Assembly: GCF_002150785.1 (NCBI RefSeq)
Contig: NZ_MTAZ01000010.1
Location: 1 to 50,256 of the forward strand
Reading direction: 5' to 3'
Source of the DNA: Arenibacter amylolyticus
GTDB lineage: Bacteria; Bacteroidota; Bacteroidia; Flavobacteriales; Flavobacteriaceae
Length of the DNA stretch: 50,256 nt
Shown: in pieces, positions 7,513-10,461 of the stretch
Position numbering within the stretch: the first letter of the stretch is position 1
How the letters are laid out: every line of letters begins with the position of its first letter
The notes under the pieces: model-generated
What the model was told of the DNA's origin: nothing
What the model saw: the letters and a program-made list of their open reading frames with translations, nothing else
Database searches by the model: none
Made by a program: the position numbers and the translations under genes

Positions 7513-9195
7513 TTAAAATTCATCTGTAATACACCCTTTGGATGCAGACGATACTGTTTTTGCATATTTATAGAGGACACCACGTTTAAACTTTAGTTCT
7601 GGTGCTGTCCAGTTTGCTCTTCTTTTCTCTAATTCTTCTTCCGAAATCTCAATATTTATAGTGTTTTTCACGGCATCAATGGTAATGATATCCCCATCTT
7701 CCACTAAGGCAATATTACCTCCATCCTGAGCTTCCGGTGCTACGTGACCCACAACAAAACCGTGTGACCCACCAGAGAAACGACCATCTGTAATTAAAGC
7801 AACATCTTTCCCCAGGCCTGCTCCCATAATAGAGGAGGTTGGTTTAAGCATCTCCGGCATTCCGGGTCCACCTTTAGGTCCTTCATAACGAATGATAACC
7901 ACATCGCCTTTTTTAACCTCACCGTTTTTAATTCCCTCATTTACAGCATCTTCCCCGTCAAAAACATTGGCAGTCCCTTTAAAATAAAGTCCTTCTTTAC
8001 CAGTAATTTTAGCAACAGCCCCTTCGGTGGCCAAGTTTCCAAAGAGAATTCTAATATGTCCTGTCTCCTTAATGGGCTTGTCCAAGGTACTTATAACATC
8101 CTGACCTTCAATTAAGTTTGGTACGTCTTTTAAGTTTTCTGCCAAGGTTTTCCCAGTAACTGTTAAACAGTCGCCGTGAAGCATATCGTTTTCTAACAAG
8201 TATTTTAATACCCCAGGAATTCCACCCACCTTGTGTAATTCTTCCATAGAATATTTACCACTTGGCTTTAAATCTGCCAACAAAGGTGTATTATCACTAA
8301 TTCGTTTAAAGTCTTCTAAATCAAATTCGATATTGGCTGCTTTCGCAATGGCCAAGAAGTGAAGTACTGCATTGGTAGATCCCCCAAGGACAGTAACCAA
8401 TCTAAAGGCATTTTCCAAAGATTTTTTGGTTACGATATCGGAAGGTTTTATATCTCTTTCCAATAACAATCGCAATGCTTCCCCTGCCCTTACAGACTCT
8501 TGCTCTTTTAATTTATCCGAGCTTACAGCCGGATTGGAGGAGTTAAAAGGAAGCGACATCCCCAAGGCTTCAATCGCAGACGCCATGGTGTTAGCGGTGT
8601 ACATACCTCCGCAAGCACCTGCACCTGGACAAGCCTTATGGATAACCTCTTGGAATTCTGACTCATCTATGGTTCCTGCAACCTTTTGACCATACGCCTC
8701 GAATGCAGAAATAATATCTAATTTTTTCCCGTTATGGCATCCAGATGCAATGGTACCCCCATAGACCAAAATAGACGGCCTATTTAAACGTAGCATTGCC
8801 ATTAAGGCACCTGGCATATTTTTATCACAACCTACAACAGTAATTAATCCATCGTAACTCATCCCTTCTACCACGGTTTCCATGGAGTCTGCAATAATAT
8901 CCCTAGAGGGCAAGGAGAATCGCATCCCCGGAGTTCCGTTGGCAATACCATCACTAACTCCTATTGTATTAAAAATCAACCCGATCAATCCAGCATTTTC
9001 AGTCCCCTTCTTAATATGCGTAGCCAAATCATTTAAATGCATATTACAGGGATTGCCCTCATAACCAGTACTTCCTATACCAATTAATGGTTTTTTTAAA
9101 TCTTCGTCCGTTAAACCAATTGCGTGCAACATAGCTTGAGCTGCGGGCAAACTGGGATCCTGAGTTACTTTTTTACTAAATTTATTTAATTCCAT
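7513..9195 (-). CDS. ilvD: Dihydroxy-acid dehydratase
   Basis: A 560-residue Fe-S dehydratase of the IlvD/Edd family that converts dihydroxy acids to 2-keto acids in both the Val/Leu and Ile branches. The three cluster cysteines are visible: Cys50 in GNPCNMH, Cys123 in VGCDKNMPG, and Cys195 in [14 protein letters not shown]. The GRFSGG motif near the C-terminus is also present. It is the first structural gene of the ilv operon and stands behind an unusually long leader containing an attenuator (9196-9624). The start ATG at 9195 gives the expected N-terminus [10 protein letters not shown]. Confidence 0.95.
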
Positions 9196-9244: not shown

Positions 9245-9252
9245 CAAAGATA
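9245..9252 (-). promoter_or_regulatory. TAnnTTTG box between the attenuator and ilvD
   Basis: On the minus strand this reads TATCTTTG, a perfect match to the Bacteroidota -7 element, placing a start about 45 bases before the ilvD ATG. No TTG is found at the usual 19-21 base distance upstream, so it may be a weak secondary promoter or chance. If real it would let ilvD escape the upstream attenuator. Confidence 0.35.
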
Positions 9253-9271
9253 AATTAATAAAATCCCCTAA

Positions 9272-9290
9272 ATTCCCAACCAATGGGAAT
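9272..9290 (-). promoter_or_regulatory. Hairpin downstream of second leader ORF
   Basis: ATTCCCA and TGGGAAT pair perfectly over 7 bp with a 5-base loop. It lies 45 bases beyond the stop codon of the short ORF at 9335-9385. A moderately T-rich stretch follows after a 7-base gap, so it is at best a poor terminator. Confidence 0.35.
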
Positions 9291-9334
9291 GATTTAAATT
9301 CAGCAACACCAATAACCACTTAATAGACTAATAA

Positions 9335-9385
9335 TCAGCTACTTAACGTTACAATTCCTATCATATTCAGTAGGATTTTATTCAT
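9335..9385 (-). CDS. Possible second ilv leader peptide (Leu/Ile/Val-rich)
   Basis: A 16-codon ORF encoding MNKILLNMIGIVTLSS, with 7 branched-chain residues (3 Leu, 3 Ile, 1 Val), stop TGA. The ATG is preceded by GAAAAAAAG, an A-rich context typical of translated starts in this group. It lies between the attenuator hairpin and ilvD. AT-rich DNA favours Ile and Leu codons by chance, so its composition alone is modest evidence. It could be a second leader-peptide sensor covering leucine, or an unused ORF. Confidence 0.35.
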   Translation of the reverse strand: MNKILLNMIGIVTLSS

Positions 9386-9445: not shown

Positions 9446-9482
9446 TTAAAAAGCCTGTATCTTTTTTATCTGATACAGGCTT
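9446..9482 (-). terminator. Attenuator terminator in the ilv leader
   Basis: On the minus strand AAAAAGCCTGTATC pairs perfectly with GATACAGGCTTTTT around a 10-base loop, and the 3' arm ends in five Ts. It lies 39 bases beyond the leader-peptide stop codon and about 250 bases before ilvD, so it would stop transcription before the structural genes. The hairpin also has a T tract on the plus strand, so it could work in both directions, but no plus-strand gene ends here. Confidence 0.8.
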
Positions 9483-9509
9483 TTTTTTAAAAAAAATAAA
9501 AACAAATCC

Positions 9510-9553
9510 GCATCATCCCCTCTAAGGGATAATAATAATCACATTAATGATGC
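9510..9553 (-). promoter_or_regulatory. Leader stem overlapping the peptide-coding codons
   Basis: GCATCAT within leader codons 6-8 (9553-9547) is exactly complementary to ATGATGC just past the stop codon (9516-9510). The Ile codon run lies in the loop. A ribosome moving through or stalled on the Ile codons would break this stem, the kind of coupling expected of translational sensing in an attenuator. Its link to the downstream terminator is inferred. Confidence 0.5.
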
Positions 9554-9569
9554 TGTTGTTTATTTTCAT
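9522..9569 (-). CDS. ilv operon leader peptide (attenuator)
   Basis: A 15-codon ORF encoding MKINNSIINVIIIIP, stop TAG. Eight of 15 residues are branched-chain (7 Ile, 1 Val), with Ile-Ile-Ile-Ile in a row before the final Pro. It starts 374 bases upstream of ilvD on the same strand and is followed by a self-complementary stem and then a strong terminator, before an operon that makes isoleucine and valine. This is the layout of the enterobacterial ilvL attenuators, where stalling on uncharged tRNA-Ile/Val blocks the terminator. No translation data are available; the evidence is composition, position and structure. I find no good TTG/TAnnTTTG promoter in the 55 bases between it and pxpC. Confidence 0.75.
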   Translation of the reverse strand: MKINNSIINVIIIIP

Positions 9570-9624
9570 AATGGTAAAATTAGGTATTAAATTTAAAACC
9601 ACAAAAGTTTCTTCTAAATTAATA

Positions 9625-10461
9625 CTAGAGTTTAAAGCGGATTGCGTCTCCCGATTTTTTTTGCGCCAATAGGCCGATGGCTTTATCTGATAGCTGTAAT
9701 ATTCTAGGGTATCCCCCTGTGGTCTGCCCGTCCATCATCAGGATAATTAATTTCCCTGATGGGGTTAACTGAACCGTACCCGGTAAGGTTGCAGAAGTAA
9801 GCATGGACAAGTCACTACCTGTTATGGTCTCATTTAACTGATACGCCATCCTGTTGTTTTGGTTAGCAACAGTAAATTCCCGAGCAAACAGTTCTTTCAG
9901 CTGCCCATCTGTCAATTCCCCAAACTCCGGCCCGTGAAAAACTTTTAGACTCTCTTTTGCAAGTCCAGAATCGACTTTCATTTCGGAAATCTTAGGTGAA
10001 AAATCGGTTATAGGGTCATAAGGCAATTCCACCATATCTTTTATGGAACTGAATTCCGTTATTGGGAAGTAAAAAGACCTACTCCCTAAAACAGCGGGGG
10101 TTTTAAAACCATTCTTGATCCCTAAATAGGCTCTAAATCCGCCTTCTAGCTTACCATAGGATAGCACATCCCCTTTTTCAATTTTTATAACCGTATAGTT
10201 GGAGACAGGCGAATCGTTTATTGAGGCCGACATAAGGGCTCCACCGAGGGCAATATAAGTTTCTTCGGAAAACTCCAGGGTAGGTCCGGTCATGGTTATT
10301 TCCAATACGGCCGCTGTCTCCTCGTTTTCTAGGAGGGCGTTTACTTTAGATACTGCATTGGCATCCATCACTCCAGAAACCGGTACTCCTTTATCCCTAA
10401 AGCCAAATCTTCCATTATCCTGAACTGTGGAGAAAAAACCAGGTTTTAAAATTTTAAGCAT
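9625..10461 (-). CDS. pxpC: 5-oxoprolinase subunit PxpC (KipA-like, carboxyltransferase family)
   Basis: A 278-residue protein of the KipA/biotin-dependent carboxyltransferase-like family. With PxpA and PxpB it forms the prokaryotic ATP-dependent 5-oxoprolinase that opens 5-oxo-L-proline (pyroglutamate) to glutamate. The N-terminus has the family's opening (residues 6-25, with QDNGRFG and the GVPVSGVMD segment), and the middle has the FHGPEF-type segment. It overlaps pxpB by 8 bases, implying translational coupling. Its stop codon lies only 55 bases from the ilv leader peptide, so read-through from this operon into the ilv leader is possible. Confidence 0.88.
   Translation of the reverse strand: MLKILKPGFFSTVQDNGRFGFRDKGVPVSGVMDANAVSKVNALLENEETAAVLEITMTGPTLEFSEETYIALGGALMSASINDSPVSNYTVIKIEKGDVLSYGKLEGGFRAYLGIKNGFKTPAVLGSRSFYFPITEFSSIKDMVELPYDPITDFSPKISEMKVDSGLAKESLKVFHGPEFGELTDGQLKELFAREFTVANQNNRMAYQLNETITGSDLSMLTSATLPGTVQLTPSGKLIILMMDGQTTGGYPRILQLSDKAIGLLAQKKSGDAIRFKL

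Follow-up and report, generated by a model that had tools for sequence, protein, structure and literature searches.

A conserved Ile/Val leader-peptide attenuator candidate and a probable second promoter upstream of ilvD in Arenibacter amylolyticus

Leader-peptide attenuation of amino-acid operons is textbook knowledge. In Corynebacterium glutamicum, the accessible text of one report describes a 15-residue leader with Ile, Val and Leu codons in front of ilvBNC, transcription that begins one nucleotide away from the start codon of this leader, and further operon promoters (PMC11857589). For Flavobacterium psychrophilum, the available text of another study reports "strong clues" that leader-peptide attenuation operates ahead of amino-acid operons and names pheA and hisG among conserved 5' elements, with ilv absent from the main text (PMC9723704). 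Short ORFs reminiscent of leader peptides have also been described, in the part of the paper that was accessible, in long 5' UTRs of B. thetaiotaomicron (PMC7366714), and the accessible part of a further paper mentions neither Bacteroidetes nor ilv (PMC2965389). The open-licence literature yielded no paper linking a leader peptide with ilv or ilvD in Bacteroidetes or Flavobacterium. Such elements may already be listed in the comparative work on attenuation that Lopatovskaya et al. published in 2010.

Here we analyzed a 50,256-nucleotide stretch of A. amylolyticus DNA (the window). On its minus strand, with gene names given by NCBIfam, the order is pxpA-pxpB-pxpC, a 15-codon ORF, a hairpin and ilvD-ilvB-ilvN-ilvC-ilvA (Table 1). 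We consider it highly likely that the ORF and the hairpin belong to a ribosome-mediated attenuator acting on transcripts from a candidate promoter, P1, and that a second promoter, P2, probably adds a factor-controlled supply. The locus offers a solid, testable sequence case of ribosome-mediated Ile/Val attenuation in Flavobacteriaceae.

Table 1. Features of the ilvD upstream region, in window coordinates
Feature	Position	Strand	Basis
Candidate -33 TTTG of P1 (inferred promoter)	9602..9605	-	Sequence; by eye about here in genus alignment
Candidate -7 box of P1, TAATTTTA, 5/6 to TAnnTTTG, 5 nt before leader ATG	9575..9582	-	Sequence
Leader ORF MKINNSIINVIIIIP with stop, ATG 9569 to TAG 9522	9522..9569	-	Sequence, genus alignment, automated search
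Protector hairpin around stop codon, segments 1:2 (control codons and bases past the stop)	9511..9534	-	18/18 genus genomes
Antiterminator 5' strand UGAUGCGG, segment 2	9508..9515	-	8 bp with CUGUAUCA
Intrinsic terminator (segments 3:4), a 14-bp hairpin with five U at its end	9448..9485	-	Folding, automated search
Antiterminator 3' strand CUGUAUCA, segment 3, in terminator 5' arm and loop	9471..9478	-	Pairing with UGAUGCGG
Conserved motif 1 of downstream block, TGAATATGATA	9359..9369	-	Alignments and profile
Dyad, probably a regulator site, degenerate in the window; relatives have a similar one before leuA	9319..9346	-	Alignment, profile
Conserved motif 3, TGAATTTAAA	9293..9302	-	Alignments
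Candidate -7 box of P2, TATCTTTG, 81 nt from dyad centre	9245..9252	-	Box-spacing count
ilvD, first gene of ilvD-ilvB-ilvN-ilvC-ilvA	7513..9195 (operon down to 2080)	-	NCBIfam

Leader peptide, terminator and alternative pairings

The original prediction had placed a 15-codon ORF with seven Ile and one Val codons 374 nt before ilvD, and this was confirmed, with the ilvD ATG at 9195; the downstream genes were also correctly taken to make isoleucine and valine. The leader is too short for ordinary gene callers and has no Rfam match either. We searched both strands of the window for ATG-started ORFs of 10 to 40 codons that hold 6 or more Ile/Val in a stretch of 10 residues and are followed by a terminator no more than 75 nt away. 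The only match in the 50 kb was this leader, whereas the same search found none in six shuffled 50-kb strands. The attenuator element folded at -37.7 kcal/mol compared with a shuffle mean of -19.2 kcal/mol (z of -5.3). The single match, the empty shuffles and the fold score together show that the element is not due to chance.

To follow the element in relatives, we used 18 genomes of the genus, including the window's own, together with 108 further loci of the family and 80 named loci, the nearest of which was from Arenibacter latericius (IlvD 94% identical). The short leader is enriched in Ile/Val codons and was located in 18/18 genus genomes, and the whole element was found in all 18 by alignment. 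Its control codons, 11 to 14, are four consecutive Ile/Val codons in every genus genome and read Ile-Ile-Ile-Ile in the window. Codon 11 is Val in 17 of the genomes and Ile only in that of the window, so that, across the genus, both amino acids are read.

The automated search for a leader and terminator with at least 6 Ile/Val in 10 codons recovered 17/18 genus, 49/108 family and 29/80 named loci, while the reverse strands gave 0, 0 and 0 and three shuffles of each set gave none. With the criterion lowered to 5 Ile/Val, the counts were 18/18, 54/108 and 30/80, with 0, 1 and 1 on the reverse strands and 0 in the shuffles. Since the rows share ancestry and certain loci appear in more than one set (for example L001/L082, L004/L121 and L014/L149), these counts are not independent data. 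The expectation that an alignment would keep the Ile/Val leader and terminator held throughout the genus (18/18), but the terminator is not always kept across the family: by the criterion of 6 Ile/Val the element is absent from 59/108 family and 51/80 named loci, which counts against the attenuator. Matches beyond the family came from records titled Saprospiraceae, Segetibacter and one Ignavibacteriae MAG, although MAG titles may be wrong. We take these three groups to lie outside Flavobacteriaceae.

An intrinsic terminator stands between the leader and the first gene in all 18 genus rows. The 14-bp hairpin that had been predicted is real and has a loop of 10 nt; the five Ts in which it was said to end proved to be the 3' end of the stem itself, after which the sequence continues AATT. 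This U tract of five is short, with a longer run in most other rows of the genus alignment, which again counts against the attenuator. The predicted spacing of 39 nt was not borne out, as 36 nt separate the stop codon from the hairpin and 24 nt separate the hairpin from a stem formed by codons 6 to 8. That stem is present in the window (8 pairs, one of them G.U, when extended by one), but it is not conserved, reaching at least 7 bp in 1/18 genus genomes, the window's only. We therefore rejected it as the protector in favor of a helix at codons 13 to 15. In this protector (1:2) pairing, which overlaps the leader, codons 13 to 15 and the last base of codon 12 pair with segment 2 over 9 to 10 bp in 18/18 genus genomes.

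We then scored the antiterminator helix that the bases at and past the leader stop codon form with the 5' arm and loop of the terminator. Across 105 units, which as related and partly repeated rows are not independent data, the mean score with the own partner was 15.87, compared with 12.83 (standard deviation 0.26, maximum 13.62) in 200 partner swaps between loci. The terminators of these units fell into a CCTTCC type (50 units), a CCTGTATC type (40 units, the window included) and others (15 units), and in every class the own antiterminator partner outscored partners from other classes. The antiterminator is thus exclusive with the terminator and varies along with it; the rows being related, no probability is attached to this. 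The pairing follows the classic attenuation scheme, with the control codons doubling as segment 1.

With a modelled ribosome at codons 12 to 14, the antiterminator had -11.4 kcal/mol before the terminator 3' arm is made, while a ribosome at the stop codon left it only -5.6 kcal/mol. Once the RNA was complete, the best fold contained the terminator in each of the eight ribosome states modelled; this counts against the attenuator, whose outcome would then depend on timing.

The kept leader, the kept terminator and an antiterminator that follows the terminator support the proposal of a transcription attenuator, and the leader and terminator very probably work as a classic Ile/Val attenuator. Such an element would sense charged tRNA-Ile (and tRNA-Val) and act on transcripts from P1, just before the leader. 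When the amino acids are ample, the ribosome would reach the stop codon and cover segment 2, and the terminator would form. In a shortage, the ribosome would be expected to stall on Ile/Val codons 11 to 14, overlapping segment 1, and so block the protector hairpin. Segment 2 could then pair with the terminator 5' arm, and RNA polymerase would continue into ilvDBNCA.

Candidate promoters above the leader and below the terminator

A sigma-70 type promoter scan upstream of the leader gave no match, but scans of this type are ill-suited to this phylum. A TAnnTTTG-like box (at least 5/6) ends 4 to 5 nt before the ATG in 17/17 of the genus leaders listed and in 25/32 first leaders of the CCTGTATC class. 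In first leaders of the other terminator classes the box is more often 8 to 12 nt away (40 box matches among 63 leaders), and in Flavobacterium first leaders it is 18 to 22 nt from the ATG. The accessible text of the F. psychrophilum study puts the -7 box at -12 to -5 (PMC9723704). From this position and the distance of 4 to 5 nt, the leader mRNA should start a few nucleotides from the AUG. The mRNA is therefore probably leaderless or nearly so, with a predicted start at or within a few nucleotides of the AUG. For C. glutamicum ilvBNC and S. meliloti trpL, the accessible texts describe leader-peptide mRNAs that are leaderless or have a single nucleotide ahead of the start codon.

While the window holds a single unit, two complete Ile/Val leader-terminator units stand in series upstream of ilvD in 10/95 attenuator loci (L017, L021, L028, L030, L099, L117, L120, L147, L154 and L181). 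In 8 of the 10, the CCTTCC type comes first and the CCTGTATC type second. In 9/10 tandem loci, all but L028, the 12 nt before the second leader are free of a -7 box, as expected if the second leaders were transcribed from the first promoter. In L103, L141 and L164, an extra hairpin and T run can be seen by eye just before the leader.

Between the terminator and ilvD lies a conserved block made up of a TGAAyATsATA motif, a dyad (approximately TTTAAATAACTGATAATCAGTTATTTAAA), a TGAATTTAA motif and a TAnnTTnG box. A profile of this block, built from 67 attenuator loci, matched 133/206 ilvD upstream regions at E ≤ 1e-3 and 0/206 shuffled regions. The matches comprised 78/95 regions with an attenuator, training rows included, and 55/111 without a detected attenuator, one of these 55 on the opposite strand. 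Among block loci without a detected attenuator, 16/54 have some terminator-like hairpin upstream, several of them with a weaker leader. Of 132 ilvD loci, 126 have a box that begins 80 to 84 nt from the centre of the dyad, and other 5-nt brackets hold 0 to 3, a count that is partly built in because the profile used to pick the loci includes the box columns. The 126 spaced TAnnTTnG boxes, set against the TAnnTTTG-like -7 box of a Bacteroidota sigma-A type promoter, end in TTTG (67), TTCG (41) or TTAG (18).

The same arrangement was found before leuA. In 16/18 leuA loci of the genus and 21/29 of the family, the best dyad scored above the 99% level of the shuffles, and a TAnnTTnG box lay 81 to 84 nt from the best dyad in 45/47 loci, whatever the dyad score. 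The leuA box spacing is less open to built-in bias. It was the dyad that led to the leuA loci of the genus; those of the family were chosen independently of it. No attenuator was found within 350 nt upstream of leuA in the 47 loci. In the window, the dyad and the -7 box lie within 9245-9370, with the geometry of about 82 nt seen before leuA.

We also considered the block as a structured RNA, and rejected this: RNAalifold on 103 rows gave no structure, and pairing of the dyad columns was not clearly above shuffles. The block was accordingly read as DNA. Its conservation and geometry suggest that it probably acts as P2, a regulated promoter whose site is common to ilvD and leuA, and that some ilvD transcripts begin downstream of the attenuator. 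RNA polymerase starting from a promoter at this place would bypass the attenuator and add factor-controlled ilv mRNA; such a promoter would also dilute the effect of the attenuator and to that extent counts against it.

A genome search for the exact dyad pattern gave matches in 13/18 genus genomes, compared with 2/18 for a reversed control pattern. Other matches in the genus are at an OsmC-type gene (67 nt before it at L226:2457-2485), at an apparent ribonucleotide reductase and at apparent mobile-element genes. The gene after the OsmC-type gene resembles that of a pyruvate:ferredoxin oxidoreductase. In L010, L021, L028, L032 and L037 (Aquimarina, Lutibacter), motifs 1 and 3 shift together towards ATTGTAA, as if the preference of the regulator had changed. 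The window's genome has six Lrp/AsnC-type genes, and nothing in the analysis ties any of them to the dyad. The LeuA of the genus is only 390 residues long (L221:2574-3743) and matches approximately the first 380 of the 494 to 516 positions of bacterial LeuA models; with the C-terminal part missing, leucine feedback might be absent. Searches of open-licence papers for a regulator of branched-chain synthesis in this group gave a single match, on polysaccharide use.

Alternative explanations

The hairpin might only terminate the upstream pxp genes, the small ORF being incidental. The end of pxpC, at 9625, precedes the hairpin by 140 nt on this strand, so that the hairpin would also stop read-through from there, and pxpC is upstream in 16/18 genus loci. 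However, 75/95 attenuator loci, two of the genus loci included, are without pxpC (E ≤ 1e-3) within 650 nt, and for this reason we rejected a terminator belonging to the pxp genes alone as the whole story. The Ile/Val codons, the protector helix and a fitting antiterminator, all of them kept, likewise make it very improbable. A T-box or metabolite riboswitch in place of the leader peptide would suit an amino-acid operon with a terminator in its 5' region, but the chance of this is close to nil: an Rfam scan of the whole 50-kb window gave 0 matches at gathering score, and what has been conserved is a reading frame carrying Ile/Val codons.

More weight is due to the idea that ilvD is transcribed mainly from P2 under a DNA-binding regulator and that the attenuator is minor or conditional. 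The block at 55 loci without a detected attenuator, its absence from the shuffled regions, the spacing of the -7 box and the leuA dyads all speak for it. On the other hand, the attenuator is kept in all 18 genus genomes, and an idle element would hardly be expected to persist in this way. The window dyad is moreover degenerate: in the window's own genome (G000) the exact dyad pattern has 0 matches against 2 for the reversed control, and the dyad of its own leuA falls below the 99% shuffle threshold. We regard a dominant P2 as possible but doubtful, and prefer an attenuator on P1 transcripts supplemented by P2.

For the family, we lean towards a layered control of ilv, in which an attenuator with a leaderless leader, two in series in some genera, would act on P1, and P2 would be under an undescribed regulator that also takes in leuA with the 82-nt geometry. 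If true, this layered control would define a regulon and an in-series two-attenuator gate for Ile/Val.

Comparison with known systems

The ilvD-leuA dyad-promoter module points to a regulator of branched-chain synthesis, and the serial double attenuators of relatives offer a natural way to examine the combined action of two ribosome sensors. In Salmonella mgtCBR, according to the accessible text, a single leader region carries two short ORFs that control transcription of the coding region (PMC3641672). That is not an amino-acid biosynthesis operon, and the likeness is to the tandem Ile/Val units of relatives, not to the window. The probable leaderless leader start in this phylum, the serial double units and the ilvD-leuA module are the newer parts, and in the accessible open-licence literature we found none of them described.

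Like the ilv attenuators of enterobacteria (ilvGMEDA, ivbL-ilvBN), the window has a short Ile/Val leader, a terminator before ilv genes and alternative 1:2, 2:3 and 3:4 pairings. Unlike them, it has a leader of 15 codons only, a protector strand overlapping the control codons by the stop, a probable leaderless start and a different type of promoter. C. glutamicum ilvBNC likewise has a 15-residue leader, with Ile, Val and Leu codons, in a different phylum and with a different sequence, and the accessible text of its report mentions nothing that would correspond to the dyad-promoter module downstream (PMC11857589). F. psychrophilum belongs to the same family as the window, and leader-peptide attenuation is suggested in both, for F. 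psychrophilum in the accessible text of the study cited above. Attenuation of this kind has therefore already been suggested in Flavobacterium, and the new part of the window element is this well-supported instance.
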